A stretch of 46,933 bases of DNA from Helicobacteraceae bacterium (lineage in GTDB: Bacteria > Campylobacterota > Campylobacteria > Campylobacterales > SZUA-545), in contig JAISOU010000087.1 in NCBI GenBank assembly GCA_031275395.1, forward strand, positions 1 through 46,933. The letters run 5' to 3'. The notes below the pieces were generated by a model. That model did no database searches. It had not been told where the DNA came from and saw only the letters and a list, made by a program, of their open reading frames with translations. Every line of letters starts with the position of its first letter. Position 1 is the first letter of the stretch. Shown here piece after piece: positions 40,804 through 46,933 of this stretch. A program made the position numbers and the translations under genes.

Positions 40804-41315
40804 TTTATATCGCTCCTTAATAGATGATTTGCGTTTTTAATATATTTTATTTCTATGCGTATTGCGCGAAAAAATTCATAGGCGCTGTTTGCGTTGATGA
40901 TTTTATCGTTCGCGCCTAAAATAACCTCGATCTTGACTTTGGATAATCGCTTAAAATCTTCCGCTTTCCAATGAAAATTAAGCAAAAACTCCAAATCGTT
41001 TTTTTGCGCGTTGATCTCTTTATATTTAGGATCGAACTCGCCGCAATTTGCATAAAAGTTTTGCATATACAAAGCTCGATCGCGAGTAAAACCGATAAGC
41101 TGCGAACGGATAAAGCGATCATCTCTATCTTGAAAAAACGGCGGCGAAAGCAAAATCAGCCGATCGAATCTTTGGCTACGATCGGCGACAAACTGGTAAG
41201 CTCTAATCGCGCCCAAACTAAAGCCCGCCGCGCAAAAAGGCGCGTCGTCGATCGGCAGATAGTCCGCAAAAAGCGACGCTTCGTTTTTGAATCCAAAACC
41301 GCTAAAGAACCTCAA
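40800..41315 (-). CDS. bioV: Pimeloyl-ACP methyl ester esterase BioV-like
   Basis: About 171 residues of a small alpha/beta hydrolase. RFFSGFGFKNEASLFADYL, the nucleophile elbow AAGFSLGAIRAYQF, and LLSPPFFQDRDDRF with YMQNFYANCG match the BioV proteins of Helicobacter and Campylobacter. These demethylate pimeloyl-ACP methyl ester to end biotin chain synthesis. Candidates for the other triad residues are the Asp in GANDKII and the His in NANHLL. The open frame starts at 41369, but TTG 41315 inside the end of the FtsH-like gene gives the family N-terminus. Confidence 0.8.
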   Translation of the reverse strand: MRFFSGFGFKNEASLFADYLPIDDAPFCAAGFSLGAIRAYQFVADRSQRFDRLILLSPPFFQDRDDRFIRSQLIGFTRDRALYMQNFYANCGEFDPKYKEINAQKNDLEFLLNFHWKAEDFKRLSKVKIEVILGANDKIINANSAYEFFRAIRIEIKYIKNANHLLRSDIK

Positions 41316-42705
41316 ACGCCGCGCTTTCGTTTGCGAGTAACAGCGCCGCAATCTTCTCGATTGCCGCACTATCGAGATTATCGCCCGCCGCCATAATCGC
41401 CTCTTGCATCAACTTTTCCGCGCCGCCTTTAAGCTCCGTCGGATCGTAGATCGCGATATATCGCTCGGCGATCTTACGCGCAAGCGCCGCGTCGCTTTCG
41501 CAAAAACTCGCGCCGCTTTCCGCGTTCGATCGCCACAGAGCGAACCCCGCTAATCTTGCGCATAGCAGCGCGAAAAGCTCCGATTCGCTTAAAACGCTTT
41601 CGTGATCTTGTAAGAAATCGTTTGCAAGTTTAACCGTCTCAAACCGCGATCCCAATCGCTTTGCCGCGATCGCTTTTGCCGCTTGATAACGCGCTCTTTT
41701 TTCGCGCATATCCGCCTCGAGCCACTCGCCGCTTTTCTTTAGGCTAATCACCTTTTCTTTGATCGCTTCTATGTCGATCTGCTCAATCTTTTCCGCGTTT
41801 CGTTTTAGCGCGTGTAAAGCCGCCTCGTTTGCAAGAGTCGATAGCGCCGCGCCGCTAAAGCCCGTAGAGTTTTGCGCTAATCTATTGAGATCGATCGAAT
41901 GAGGCTTTCCGCTAAAGGCTATTTTTAAGATTTCTAAGCGATCGTTTATATTGGGCAGACCTATCTCTACGCGCCGATCGAATCTACCCGGTCGTAATAG
42001 CGCGCTATCCAAAAGTTCTATGCGGTTTGTAGCCGCCAAAACCACTACTCCGCTTTGGCTTTCAAAGCCGTCCATTTCCGTTAAAAGCTGATTAAGCGTA
42101 TTTTCCCGTTCGTCGCTTCTTGCGCCGCCTCGCGCCTTGCCCACCGCGTCGATCTCGTCTATAAAGACGATCGACGGGGCGCTTTTACGCGCCGCCGCGA
42201 AAAGCTCGGCGACTTTTTTTGGTCCTACGCCCACGTAAAGATGAGCGAAACTCGACCCCGAAGCGTAGAAAAACGCCACGCCCGCTTCTCCCGCGATCGC
42301 CTTCGCCATTAGCGTTTTGCCTACGCCTGGAGGTCCGGCTAACAAAACGCCGCGAGGCAAAACCACGCCAAAGCGCCCGTATTTAGACGGATTTTTGAAA
42401 TAATCGACAATCTCGTCAAGCTCCTCTCGCGCCGAGTTTAGCCCCGCGACCTGTTTGAACGTAACCTTTGATCGCGTCGGCGTAAAAGAGGTTTCGTTCG
42501 GCTCTTTTGACGACCTGTTCGCGCTCGCGCTTACGTTTTGCGCAATTGGCGCGGCGAACTTAGTCCAAAAAAGAAAAAGCGCGGCGGCGGCCAATAACGT
42601 AACGATCGGCGCGTACCAATTACTTAATGCAAAGCCTAGAATCAGCAGAACGCAACCGATTGCAAGAGAGGCTATGGCGAGGCTGTCTATCTTTTTAAGC
42701 GTCAT
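41302..42705 (-). CDS. FtsH-like AAA ATPase lacking the protease zinc motif
   Basis: 467 residues. Two N-terminal membrane segments (about 8-48) are followed by a canonical FtsH AAA module: FKQVAGLNSAREELDEI, Walker A GPPGVGKT, pore loop ASGSSFAHLYVGVG, Walker B IVFIDEIDAVG and second region of homology ATNRIELLDSALLRPGRFDRR. The C-terminal M41-like domain is short and degenerate: where FtsH has HEAGH the sequence reads YQAAKAIAAKR, so zinc proteolysis is not expected. It is probably a membrane-bound remodelling ATPase or a regulator of true FtsH. It heads the bioV-mog operon. Confidence 0.82.
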   Translation of the reverse strand: MTLKKIDSLAIASLAIGCVLLILGFALSNWYAPIVTLLAAAALFLFWTKFAAPIAQNVSASANRSSKEPNETSFTPTRSKVTFKQVAGLNSAREELDEIVDYFKNPSKYGRFGVVLPRGVLLAGPPGVGKTLMAKAIAGEAGVAFFYASGSSFAHLYVGVGPKKVAELFAAARKSAPSIVFIDEIDAVGKARGGARSDERENTLNQLLTEMDGFESQSGVVVLAATNRIELLDSALLRPGRFDRRVEIGLPNINDRLEILKIAFSGKPHSIDLNRLAQNSTGFSGAALSTLANEAALHALKRNAEKIEQIDIEAIKEKVISLKKSGEWLEADMREKRARYQAAKAIAAKRLGSRFETVKLANDFLQDHESVLSESELFALLCARLAGFALWRSNAESGASFCESDAALARKIAERYIAIYDPTELKGGAEKLMQEAIMAAGDNLDSAAIEKIAALLLANESAAFEVL

Positions 42706-42808
42706 TTTCGCCTTCCGTTTTGGCTTTTTAATTTAACGATCCTATAACGCAATCGCTTACGGCTAAAATTGATCGATGATTTAAGCCTAATTGGTTATGA
42801 TTGGCTTT

Positions 42809-43750
42809 ATGAATTCGCAATTTATCGAAGTTATCGAGTCCGTTACGCCCGATCCGAATCTGTTGATGTGGAAGTTTCGCGACGAGATTTGCGAGATACA
42901 AAACGGAGCGAAATTAACCGTGCGGGAAAGCCAGCAGGCGCTGTTTCTTTGCGAGGGACGGATAGCCGACGTTTTTCAAAGCGGATTGCACTCTTTAGCT
43001 ACCGAAAATATCCCGATCTTTAGCCGTCTTAAGGGTTGGAAATACGGTTTCAAAAGCCCCTATAAAGCCGATATTTACTTTTTCAATACCAACCAATTTA
43101 TCAACAACAAATGGGGGACGCCTTCGCCTATCCTTATGCGCGATAGCGAATTTGGCAACGCTCGCGTTAGGGCTTACGGCAGTTTTGATATCCGTATAAG
43201 CGACGCGGCGTTGTTTTTCAAAGAGTATGCGGGGACGTATAAACAACTAACAATATTTGAACTCCAACGCCAACTGCGCGATTTTATCGCGCCAAAATTC
43301 GGCGAGATTTTAAGCTCTGAAAAGATAGCGCTGATGGAGGTCGCGGGCAATATAACGGAGCTTAGCAAAAAGATAGAACCGCTTATATCGCCCTATTTCG
43401 CGCAAATGGGGCTAACTCTGACGCAATTTATCATCACTTCCGTAACCCTGCCCGACGAAGTGTTGGCGCATATCGATTCGCTTACAAATATGAATATGGT
43501 AAGCGATATGAAACGCTTTAGCGAGTTTCAAACGGCAAAAGCGATAGGCGAGAATAAAAGCGCGTTAAACGACGCGGCGGCGCAAGGCGCGGCGTTAAAT
43601 CTAATTTTAGCGCGGGCGCAAGCGAACGATAAACAAGAGGACATAGCGGCAAAACTGACGAGGTTAAAAACGCTATTTGAAAACGCTTTGATAGACGAAG
43701 CGGAATATAAATCCAAAAAAGCTCAAATCCTAGCGGAGTTTGACGTATAA
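42809..43750 (+). CDS. SPFH-domain protein with C-terminal SHOCT-like segment (YdjI-like)
   Basis: About 313 residues. The first 220 form an SPFH/band-7-type domain of the 'virion core protein' subfamily: LMWKFRDEICEIQNGAKLTV, VRESQQALFLCEGRIAD, ARVRAYGSFDIRISDA, then helices. After an Ala-rich coiled stretch (about 235-275) the last 32 residues (IAAKLTRLKTLFENALID, then EAEYKSKKAQIL) match a SHOCT domain. B. subtilis YdjI has similar features and helps recruit the PspA protein to membranes. There is no transmembrane segment. The start is uncertain: ATG 42809 fits the domain, ATG 42797 is possible, and ribosome binding sites are weak. It is the first gene of a four-gene cassette. Confidence 0.72.
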   Translation: MNSQFIEVIESVTPDPNLLMWKFRDEICEIQNGAKLTVRESQQALFLCEGRIADVFQSGLHSLATENIPIFSRLKGWKYGFKSPYKADIYFFNTNQFINNKWGTPSPILMRDSEFGNARVRAYGSFDIRISDAALFFKEYAGTYKQLTIFELQRQLRDFIAPKFGEILSSEKIALMEVAGNITELSKKIEPLISPYFAQMGLTLTQFIITSVTLPDEVLAHIDSLTNMNMVSDMKRFSEFQTAKAIGENKSALNDAAAQGAALNLILARAQANDKQEDIAAKLTRLKTLFENALIDEAEYKSKKAQILAEFDV

Positions 43751-43751
43751 G

Positions 43752-44003
43752 ATGGCGAACAAAAGCAGCTTAAACTTCTTAAAAAATATGCAAAATATCG
43801 CCGTTAATCAAAAAAATTACGGATCGAGCGAAGCGCTAAAAGAAACGAAAATAGCGGCTAAACTTTGTCCAAATTGCGGCGCGGCGCGCGCTAAATACGA
43901 CGGGCTAACGCATTGCGCATATTGCGGATATAAGTTTATCGATACAACTTTGACGGACGGCATATTTATCAAAAAGGAGGACAATTCGCGCGATGGCAAA
44001 TAA
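43752..44003 (+). CDS. Small zinc-ribbon protein
   Basis: 83 residues. A short basic N-terminal helix is followed by a single zinc ribbon, CPNCG (about residue 43) and CAYCGYKF (about 59). The tail is acidic then basic. ATG 43752 lies one base after the upstream stop. The frame overlaps the next start by 11 bases. I cannot assign a function. In B. subtilis a zinc-ribbon protein (YdjG) is partner of the SPFH protein YdjI, and by context this may be its counterpart, although much shorter. Confidence 0.65.
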   Translation: MANKSSLNFLKNMQNIAVNQKNYGSSEALKETKIAAKLCPNCGAARAKYDGLTHCAYCGYKFIDTTLTDGIFIKKEDNSRDGK

Positions 44004-45048
44004 CGACGAATTTGACGAAACGGACGAACAAGACGCCAAATGGCTCTCTAATTTTATGAGCAAAATGCAAAAAAAGGCGCAAGCCGCGTTTGGCGCGCTA
44101 ACAAGCGTAGCGGAAGAGAAGAACGACGAAGAGCTTGACGATTTACGCGAAGAGATCGAGGATAGGCAAACAAGATGGTTCGCTTTTACAAACAAATTAG
44201 AAGAGAGGGCAAAAGAGCTCTTTGACGAGGCGCTGCCCCAACTTCGCGCGTTAAGAAAAAGCGACGAGGATATATATAAGTCAAATTACAACAAGGCGCT
44301 ATCGGGCGTATGCGGACAGCTTAGCGCGATTCGCGACAAGGCGTTTAAGGCAAAAGATAAAGAGATAGTCGATTTTAATTACTACGCGAAAGATAAAATC
44401 CCCTCTTCCCACTCCCTATCAAAAAAATTAGACAAGTTTTGGTATGACGCAAACGAAGAGTTTGAACGCTTTGATATGGCGATATACGAGTTGGATAAAC
44501 GCCTACTGGAAGACGCGGAGAATGATCTAGAGGGCGAATATCAAGAGATTATAGACTCTTTCAACGCCCAAAAAGGTAACTTTAAATGTTCGCAATGCGG
44601 AGCTACTTTACAGATTGAGCGCATATTTTTTATAGACGTAAATGTGGCGTGCGGCGTTTGCGCGTCGCAAAACAGTTTCGAGCCTAGCTCGCAAGCAAGA
44701 AGATTGCAGTTTATCGCGAACGATTTAGCCAAAAAGCGGTGCAAGCCGCTTTTGAAAGCCTACGAAGAGGAGGAGCAAAAAGAGCGCGATTTATACCAAC
44801 AGGCGCACGAGTTAAGGCTAAACGCGATACATGAAAGCGCAAGGAGAAAAGCCGAGATAGAAAAAGAGAGAGATAGGCTAAACAAGCTAAGAGAGGAAGC
44901 GATCAAAAACGCTCCTAGACTATATAGCCTCTATCTGCGCGCGGTTTGCGACGAGCTAAATAAAATCCTGCCAGAGTTCAAAGAGCATCATGAAAAGATG
45001 TATATCGAACAGAGCGGGCAAATATTTCAAATAAAGGAAAGCGAATAA
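43993..45048 (+). CDS. Coiled-coil protein with an internal zinc ribbon, unknown function
   Basis: 351 residues, highly charged. Long helices or coiled coils cover about 20-180 and 235-320. Between them lies a zinc ribbon, FKCSQCGATL and VACGVCAS (about 196-218). No signal or membrane segment is seen. AAGGAGG precedes the ATG. It overlaps the small zinc-ribbon gene by 11 bases, and its TAA shares a base with the next ATG. I recognise no family. Two ribbon proteins side by side suggest that they bind each other or the SPFH protein. Confidence 0.6.
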   Translation: MANNDEFDETDEQDAKWLSNFMSKMQKKAQAAFGALTSVAEEKNDEELDDLREEIEDRQTRWFAFTNKLEERAKELFDEALPQLRALRKSDEDIYKSNYNKALSGVCGQLSAIRDKAFKAKDKEIVDFNYYAKDKIPSSHSLSKKLDKFWYDANEEFERFDMAIYELDKRLLEDAENDLEGEYQEIIDSFNAQKGNFKCSQCGATLQIERIFFIDVNVACGVCASQNSFEPSSQARRLQFIANDLAKKRCKPLLKAYEEEEQKERDLYQQAHELRLNAIHESARRKAEIEKERDRLNKLREEAIKNAPRLYSLYLRAVCDELNKILPEFKEHHEKMYIEQSGQIFQIKESE

Positions 45049-45611
45049 TGTCAAATTTAGAACCGATACACGGTATAACGCTCCAAGAGTGGGCGCAAAT
45101 GGCAAAACTGATGGTTTCGGGCGTTGAAGAGGCGAAGGTAATCCAAGCGATGGGCATAGACGGCGCGGTTTGGGACGAGGTAAACGCGCTTTGGACGCAG
45201 AGATTGGCGGAGGATTCTACCTTTCAAATCGGGCAGATTTACGCGCAGGCTTTCGGCACGGAGGTAACGGAGCCGCGACTTAAAAATCTAAGCGCGAATA
45301 TTTCTCCCGAAGGCGCCCAAAACCTTGAGCGCATCAAAAACGACCGCTACTTTTACCACGAATTAAACGGCGCTAGAAACGCGGCTTACGCTTACGGGTT
45401 GGACGGCGCGCAGTGGATACTCGATAACTACGGCGTAAGTTTGGGCGATTTTCAATCTGTCGCTATGCAGTATATGGCGTTAAGAAATAGCGCGGGCGGC
45501 GATGAAGATCTGATACATTTTCTTGACTACGAAAAGCAAAAGCAAGAGGAGTATGAGGAGAGGTTCGCAAACGAGCGCGGCGGAAACGTCGCCGACGATA
45601 TAGAGTTTTAA
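45048..45611 (+). CDS. Helical protein, DUF6620-like, unknown function
   Basis: 187 residues, acidic and mostly helical. The opening LEPIHGITLQEWAQMAKLM followed by a glycine-containing helix and VWDEVNALWTQRL recalls the DUF6620 family as I remember it; I have not verified this. No catalytic motif, signal or membrane segment is visible. The start overlaps the previous stop by one base (TAATG), so it is the last gene of the SPFH cassette. Confidence 0.55.
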   Translation: MSNLEPIHGITLQEWAQMAKLMVSGVEEAKVIQAMGIDGAVWDEVNALWTQRLAEDSTFQIGQIYAQAFGTEVTEPRLKNLSANISPEGAQNLERIKNDRYFYHELNGARNAAYAYGLDGAQWILDNYGVSLGDFQSVAMQYMALRNSAGGDEDLIHFLDYEKQKQEEYEERFANERGGNVADDIEF

Positions 45612-45774
45612 CGCGCATAGACGAAGAAAACCTAGTTTGAATTAGCGCGGAAGGATATCTTGCTAACAAGCGAAAATATTCAAAGAAATAACGCCGCAAC
45701 TACGGGATTGCGTCTTTGCAATCAACGTTGGACTGATTGGTTTTTTGCTACGATCGCTCATAAGGAGAACGGAT

Positions 45775-46005
45775 ATGAAAAGGAAAATCGCGGCGGTTTT
45801 GGCGGCGGCGTTCTTAACGGCTATAAGCGCGACGGGTAACAATGGCGAACCTATATCCTCCGGCGGCTTTTTGCCCGATCGCGCCGATTTTGACAAGCTT
45901 ATAGCGGAGGCGCTTGAAAGCGGCGACTATAGCGCTATGCTCGACGCGAAATCGCAGGGGGATTGGGCGGAGCTAACGGGGTTACTTTATGAAACGCGAC
46001 GTTGA
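45775..46005 (+). CDS. Short exported protein, possibly the 5' part of a split gene
   Basis: 76 residues starting at ATG 45775, with AAGGAG seven bases upstream. The N-terminus is a signal peptide (MKRKIAAVLAAAFLTAISA). The mature part is short and acidic (FDKLIAEALESGDY, then DAKSQGDWAELTGLL). The next ORF starts inside its end in another frame and codes for a beta-rich segment that would also need export. A single gene with a frameshift near 45985-46005 is the simplest explanation, but overlapping genes are possible. The family is unknown. Confidence 0.5.
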   Translation: MKRKIAAVLAAAFLTAISATGNNGEPISSGGFLPDRADFDKLIAEALESGDYSAMLDAKSQGDWAELTGLLYETRR

Positions 46006-46297
46006 AACCGTAACGAAAATGCCTCTGTCGTTGAATATCAAAGACTACGGCTTGACAGAAGAGGACAAAGAAGCGTCCGAGTTTGTAATAACTCCTAAAA
46101 AATCGGGCGTCGTTACCATTTTACGCGACGGAAAACGTAGCTTCGTTTCAAATCTAAAGATCGACGGCGAACAAGAGGCTATCGGCGGTTCTACCTATAG
46201 GTTTCGTTTTGCGGCGCAAGCGGGGCGCTCGTATCGCGTTATTTTAAGCAAGCCCTATTATAGGGGTTTGTATAGCGCTTGGGCTAACGTAAATTAG
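45989..46297 (+). CDS. Beta-rich protein segment, possibly the 3' part of a split exported protein
   Basis: 102 residues from ATG 45989, overlapping the preceding ORF by 17 bases. The sequence alternates polar and hydrophobic residues (SEFVITPKKSGVVTIL, STYRFRFAAQAGRSYRVIL), suggesting a small beta-sandwich of the kind found in secreted proteins. It has no signal peptide and no ribosome binding site of its own. See the preceding entry for the frameshift interpretation. Confidence 0.5.
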   Translation: MKRDVETVTKMPLSLNIKDYGLTEEDKEASEFVITPKKSGVVTILRDGKRSFVSNLKIDGEQEAIGGSTYRFRFAAQAGRSYRVILSKPYYRGLYSAWANVN

Positions 46298-46333
46298 CGC
46301 GAATGCAAAACCGCTCTAAATAAAGGCGCGATA

Positions 46334-46933
46334 TTGGCTAAAAAGCAAAAGCGGCACTTTTTTTGGCGACGCGCTTGGTTTAAGAAGTTTATTCGCGGCG
46401 CGGGGCTAAAGATTTTGCCCTTTTTGGGTTACCTGTTCACAAAACTGATCTATCTGACCAACCGCAAGCGCTTTATAGGGCTTGAAACGATCGCTCCGGA
46501 TAAACCCGTGATTGTCGCCTTCTGGCACGAACATATCTTGATGGCGACCTTTCACTGGAAGAAACTGCGCAAGGGCAAGAAAAACGCCAAAGTTTCCGCT
46601 ATGGTCAGCGATCACCGCGACGGCGAATATATCGCTAGGATCGTTTCGTTTTTGGGAATCTCTACGGTGCGAGGCAGTAGCGCAAGGGGCGGCGTAAAAG
46701 CGCTAATCGCCGCGTTAAAAGAGTTAAAATTGGGCAACGACGTCGCCTTTACGCCCGACGGGCCTAGAGGCCCAAGACACAGCGTCGCCGACGGGATTAT
46801 TTTAGCGGCGAAAAAGAGCGGAGCGGCTATACTACCAATGCGTTACGAGGCAAGCCGATTTTGGCGCTTAAAAAGCTGGGATCGGTTTATCATTCCAAAG
46901 CCGTTTGGCGTCATTACCTTTACCGCCAACAAG
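46334..46933 (+). CDS. DUF374 / LPxTG-less lysophospholipid acyltransferase-like protein (partial)
   Basis: The 200 codons visible run off the window end, so the C-terminus is missing. An N-terminal membrane-anchoring segment is followed by the DUF374 core: FWHEHILMA (the H-x-acyltransferase-like histidine), SDHRDGEYIARIVSFLGI, RGSSARGGVKAL and FTPDGPRGPRH. DUF374 proteins belong to the LPLAT-like acyltransferases of the inner membrane and are often near lipid A genes; the substrate is unknown. The start is TTG 46334 with AAAGG seven bases upstream. Confidence 0.8.
   Translation, partial: MAKKQKRHFFWRRAWFKKFIRGAGLKILPFLGYLFTKLIYLTNRKRFIGLETIAPDKPVIVAFWHEHILMATFHWKKLRKGKKNAKVSAMVSDHRDGEYIARIVSFLGISTVRGSSARGGVKALIAALKELKLGNDVAFTPDGPRGPRHSVADGIILAAKKSGAAILPMRYEASRFWRLKSWDRFIIPKPFGVITFTANK

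Follow-up and report, generated by a model that had tools for sequence, protein, structure and literature searches.

Four genes packed on the forward strand of a Helicobacteraceae contig, at positions 42797-45611 of the 46,933-nucleotide stretch analysed here (hereafter the window), form a genuine, conserved module that is horizontally mobile and for which no published description was found in the literature searched. Their products could assemble into a single PspA-independent, cytosolic, zinc-dependent SPFH scaffold complex with zinc-ribbon and helical adaptors, the reading that we prefer, at slightly less than an even chance.

Gene content and layout of the cassette

The first gene (42797..43750, +) encodes a 317-aa SPFH protein, whose Band_7_1 domain (PF13421) scores 243 bits for a curated cut-off of 24 (E=2.8e-72). 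It is a soluble protein, without transmembrane segment (maximum 19-residue KD of 1.14), and its tail (residues 286-312) is SHOCT-like, with a weak match of 17 bits for a cut-off of 27 (E=0.005); SHOCT just reaches 27.0 bits, for the same cut-off, in the distant homologue of locus L064. The second gene (43752..44003, +) encodes a small, 83-aa zinc-ribbon protein with a CPNC-x12-CAYC motif and sub-threshold Pfam zinc-ribbon matches. The third (43993..45048, +) encodes a long, 351-aa helical, spectrin/bundle-like protein that contains an internal zinc ribbon and belongs to no Pfam family, and the fourth (45048..45611, +) a 187-aa, all-helical protein corresponding to the C-terminal region of DUF6620. 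The intergenic spacings, from gene 1 to gene 4, are +1, -11 and -1 nt. The tight packing, the coordinates and the domain content that an earlier note had read from the letters of this DNA are thereby upheld, the SHOCT match being weak. Scans for promoters and terminators around the module are at or below chance and reveal no regulatory signal, no convincing repeat is found at the edges of the cassette, and the GC3 of the module genes is close to the local background of the window.

The most frequent companion domain of SHOCT is Band 7 (PF13421), and SHOCT failed as an oligomerisation domain in the single test reported (PMC3581485). The SPFH protein has this Band 7 domain, but the published cases are single-protein architectures, whereas the SPFH gene lies here within a conserved multi-gene module (PMC3581485). 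An FtsH-like AAA+ gene (41302-42705, -) adjoins the SPFH gene and is divergently transcribed; its product has N-terminal hydrophobic stretches and AAA and lid domains, without any match to peptidase M41. SPFH proteins HflK/C regulate FtsH in other systems. The adjacency is suggestive, and is seen, among the loci inspected, only in the window and at the sister-species locus L014.

Co-conservation of the four genes

A comparison of gene neighbourhoods, which the earlier note had proposed as a check, finds the grouping conserved in the Bacteroidota carriers and at loci of a termite metagenome series. DUF6620 is present in 10 of the 346 Bacteroidota genomes sampled, and an independent profile search of the same draw retrieves gene 3 in the same 10 genomes, along with two fragmentary matches (E=3e-4 and 9e-4). 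When these two are set aside and relatedness is ignored, the chance of such an agreement is about 1 in 6e18. In the 10 carriers, DUF6620 and gene 3 are always adjacent and the SPFH gene is present in most. A gene 2 homologue stands beside them at all loci examined, barring the truncated L028.

The order SPFH, zinc ribbon, gene 3, DUF6620 is exactly kept at five flavobacterial loci (L056-L060), and the SPFH-first four-gene order is also found, at differing sites, among termite MAGs with Campylobacterota, Bacteroidota and Zoogloeaceae labels. All four genes are present at L064, in a different order. The SPFH gene is not an obligate local partner, as the three other genes occur without an adjacent one at L061, L062, L063 and L032. 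The obligate core is composed of the zinc ribbon, gene 3 and DUF6620, and the SPFH protein is its usual partner; identity of the latter to the window protein is 60-96% across the module loci that have it, with the exception of the distant L064 (28%).

Within the window's own genus, gene 3 is found in 4 of 7 genomes and the SPFH gene in the same 4. The module of L014 occupies the same site as that of the window, with proteins 87-96% identical and a downstream acyltransferase 97% identical, and those of the genus relatives L015 and L016 lie at other sites. The dN/dS values of the module genes (0.02-0.23) indicate purifying selection and reach 0.08-0.23, for all four genes, between sister species; gene 3 has the highest value of the module in every pair compared. 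Because all four genes are constrained to this extent and their order recurs at unrelated genomic sites, the grouping is more than a chance one, and the suggestion of a distinct conserved module holds.

Distribution and horizontal transfer

The earlier note had suggested a system in Campylobacterota, and a specificity for this phylum is not supported. DUF6620 is carried by 10/346 Bacteroidota versus 3/298 Campylobacterota among the sampled genomes, and by 1/349 Pseudomonadota and 1/297 Actinomycetota, these single carriers being the seed genomes themselves. The module is thus mainly found in Bacteroidota and is very rare outside this phylum in the sampled genomes. One of the three Campylobacterota matches (L004) is taken as chance, since it scores below the cut-off and falls within a 735-aa frame that is unrelated.

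When 84,980 species genomes are scanned with strict peptide patterns, which miss distant relatives (the flavobacterial carriers came to light by profile only), nine loci with close relatives of DUF6620 emerge, all in MAGs of one naming series. Their labels span four phyla, with Campylobacterota, Bacteroidota, a Zoogloeaceae and a Bifidobacteriaceae. The sample codes Kf353, Ncb351 and Nm470 designate the lower termites Kalotermes flavicollis, Neotermes cubanus and Neotermes meruensis (PMC11707648); the codes Im510, Nc350, Cd354 and Iy174 follow the same naming style, and no text describing them was found in the literature searched.

In a tree of the concatenated proteins, L015 and L016, which come from genus mates of the window, and L017, a Campylobacterota contig, join the termite Bacteroidota in a cluster supported at 100/100, from which the window's own lineage is excluded. 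Monophyly of Campylobacterota is rejected (AU p=0.0013), as is that of the genus (AU p=0.0006), in a test using 5000 replicates where IQ-TREE advises 10000. The four module proteins of L017 are 83, 78, 63 and 84% identical to those of the Bacteroidota contig L030, L017 being a 4.6-kb contig for which misbinning is possible, as it is for the short contig L033. L014 and L016 are on contigs of 28.6 and 26.8 kb. As a control, PurA from contig L030 has 43-49% identity with the best-matching PurA in every other genome compared. The tree and these identities indicate that the module came to the window's genus by horizontal transfer and, more generally, that it moves between phyla as a unit, in termite guts. 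That phyla sharing one gut habitat exchange the module suggests that it brings a selectable advantage in that habitat.

Signs of decay accompany this mobility. A remnant beside queC (L028:7481-8558) retains a 3' portion of gene 3 with an intact DUF6620 gene, the SPFH and small zinc-ribbon genes being gone. In L016, one frameshift, possibly an assembly error, interrupts the SPFH gene. One Prevotellaceae-labelled MAG has two divergent module copies on separate contigs (L031:5901-8561 and L034:16-2325). Given this decay and these two copies, the module behaves as an accessory system.

Zinc ribbons and the DUF6620 tail

The four cysteines of the gene 2 protein (Cys39/42/55/58) and those of the gene 3 protein (Cys199/202/220/223) are invariant, in 19 homologues each. 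The AF2 model of the latter (pLDDT 86.4) displays helices at 9-90, 97-135 and 141-196, the zinc ribbon at 199-223, and further helices at 233-350; a Foldseek search against the PDB gives nothing significant, just generic helical bundles.

The fourth protein matches PF20325 with 43.4 bits for a cut-off of 27 (E=2.2e-11), and aligns only to positions 272-450 of the model, the last 179 of 450. No mention of DUF6620 was found in the literature searched. Its AF2 model is all-helical (pLDDT 83.9), apart from a disordered tail formed by the last eight residues (180-187, pLDDT <50), and gives nothing significant by Foldseek against the PDB; matches to coronavirus main protease are due to chance (32 residues, E 0.02 or worse). 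As neither of the two models significantly matches a PDB entry, the folds give no functional pointer, and no relative of known structure was found. An N-terminal DUF6620 unit (EPxxGxxLExW...W..RM..D) is repeated inside one protein at L063:1591-2511 and is carried by two tandem genes at L061 and L062 (L061:7246-8579); the 450-position PF20325 model may reflect such repeats.

The DUF6620 protein ends with ADDIEF-COOH. All 21 complete homologues have Phe as the terminal residue (F187) and 20 of the 21 have Asp at position -4 (D184); identity to the window protein drops to 24-30% among homologues and the C-terminal end is still kept. Because the tail is disordered and its free end conserved, this near-invariant D-[ILV]-x-F-COOH motif is a candidate docking peptide. 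It resembles the C-terminal tip of bacterial SSB, DDDIPF (PMC5872125), in being acidic and disordered, with a free C-terminal Phe that is near-invariant within a variable tail. The likeness is one of analogy only, since DUF6620 is another protein with no sign of an SSB fold and its motif has no Pro.

Possible function of the module

In the scaffold complex that we favour, the SPFH protein would build an oligomeric platform in the form of a ring or cage, as is general among SPFH proteins, on which the small zinc-ribbon protein would dock; such a zinc-ribbon/SPFH contact is suggested by the C-terminal zinc finger of Bacillus YdjI, which sits in the same chain as its SPFH domain. The gene 3 and DUF6620 proteins would form an obligate client- or adaptor-binding unit, with the free D-[ILV]-x-F end as the peptide by which a partner or client docks. 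The complex would probably have a stress-related role, in which client proteins are assembled or quarantined, perhaps at the inner membrane face, as an accessory system conferring a benefit in the termite gut. This functional proposal is suggested by observed features, namely the togetherness of the genes, the purifying selection, the intact zinc ligands, the lack of membrane segments, the conserved C-terminal motif, the TPM gene near three flavobacterial loci and the movement from phylum to phylum. The loci where the triad has no SPFH gene beside it, the failure of SHOCT in the oligomerisation test (PMC3581485), the lack of a significant PDB match for either model and the lack of a regulatory signal weigh against it. 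SPFH proteins are widespread and, to our knowledge, many bacterial ones have no known partner. In this module, an SPFH protein is accompanied by partners that appear to be obligate and by a candidate docking motif, PspA being absent, and the module may be testable in culture, as its gene order is unchanged in five flavobacterial-type genomes. That it represents an undescribed machine, in which the obligate triad is combined with an SPFH scaffold without PspA and with an SSB-tip-like recruiting peptide, and which is exchanged as a unit between termite-gut phyla, is a more doubtful proposition.

The module could alternatively be a variant of the Bacillus PspA-YdjG-YdjH-YdjI membrane-stress module, in which other proteins would replace PspA and the transmembrane partners and which would repair the inner membrane. 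In B. subtilis, the SPFH protein YdjI is soluble; its partners recruit it, and it connects PspA with the membrane by way of YdjG and YdjH (PMC8581546). Ravi and colleagues have described band-7, ZnR and TPM contexts around PspA in Firmicutes, and TPM, band-7 and chaperone-like neighbours of PspA have been proposed to assemble membrane-linked complexes (PMC11237479). The echo of these parts perceived in the earlier note is a true one: the window SPFH protein is soluble like YdjI and of the same family type, with an extra C-terminal element, it is accompanied by zinc ribbons (PMC11237479, PMC8581546), and a TPM gene, encoding the YdjH-type domain, lies near three of the five flavobacterial loci. 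The module shares the domain vocabulary of the catalogued Band-7/ZnR/TPM/SHOCT contexts and the proposed assembly of membrane-linked complexes, but PspA or PSP partner domains are central to the published contexts (PMC11237479). PspA (PF04012) is detected in 0 of the 20 genomes tested, while the same search is positive in 9 of 14 control genomes, so that the absence noticed at the locus extends genome-wide. The membrane partners are also missing, as anticipated, since no transmembrane segment is predicted by hydropathy in any of the four proteins (top 19-residue average of 1.33), and none is thus a membrane-integral zinc-ribbon or TPM partner comparable to YdjG or YdjH. Moreover, no TPM gene was noticed near the termite loci, the window SPFH protein has a SHOCT-like tail instead of the fused C-terminal zinc finger of YdjI, and the module adds two families, gene 3 and DUF6620. 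Because PspA is absent from all 20 genomes and transmembrane segments from the four proteins, the module is not the Bacillus one, and the SPFH analogy is what points to an envelope-guarding role. A variant of it is an unlikely explanation.

Less likely still is a biological-conflict system, active against phages or toxins, horizontally spread and often lost. Its patchy presence, the inter-phylum transfer, the decay of L028 and L016, the two divergent copies in one genome and the AbiEi/AbiEii pair immediately downstream of the L031 module would be consistent with such a role. This pair is, however, the sole defence pair standing out in the flanks, which are otherwise mostly composed of housekeeping genes, and the module proteins have no recognisable nuclease, NTPase or toxin domain. 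PADLOC gives just trivial zinc-ribbon matches (E 0.02 or worse) and PHROGs no convincing one. Nothing was found in plasmid collections with the window gene 3 and DUF6620 queries, nor in plasmid and phage collections with a flavobacterial DUF6620 query. An anti-phage function or a plasmid or phage origin is rejected on these grounds.

Finally, it is improbable that the zinc-ribbon/helical/DUF6620 triad acts on nucleic acids, its ribbons binding RNA or DNA and its acidic, SSB-like tail recruiting or competing for replication or repair proteins, for although it has two zinc ribbons, an end similar to the SSB tip (PMC5872125) and occurrences without an adjacent SPFH gene, zinc ribbons often serve protein contacts, the gene 3 and DUF6620 products are acidic (pI 5.1 and 4.4), the tail likeness is short and without Pro, and no nucleic-acid enzyme was noticed within the module.

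Genes flanking the module

No clean empty site for the module was found. At the three flavobacterial loci with a TPM gene, this gene and a DUF2314-ankyrin gene are located downstream of the module. An ankyrin-repeat gene (L014:9437-9916) is also present immediately 3' of the module in the sister species, and not in the window. In two relatives (L082:4405-6328 and L083:2864-4802), a miaB-like ORF lies immediately 5' of the acyltransferase gene, a junction that is broken in the window (46298-46933) and in L014, with the module side upstream. As the miaB-like gene directly precedes the acyltransferase gene in these relatives, the window lineage was rearranged at the acyltransferase. After the module, the window contains two small overlapping ORFs (45745-46297), the first with a signal-peptide-like stretch and only the second recovered in L014; they may correspond to a degrading secreted-protein gene.
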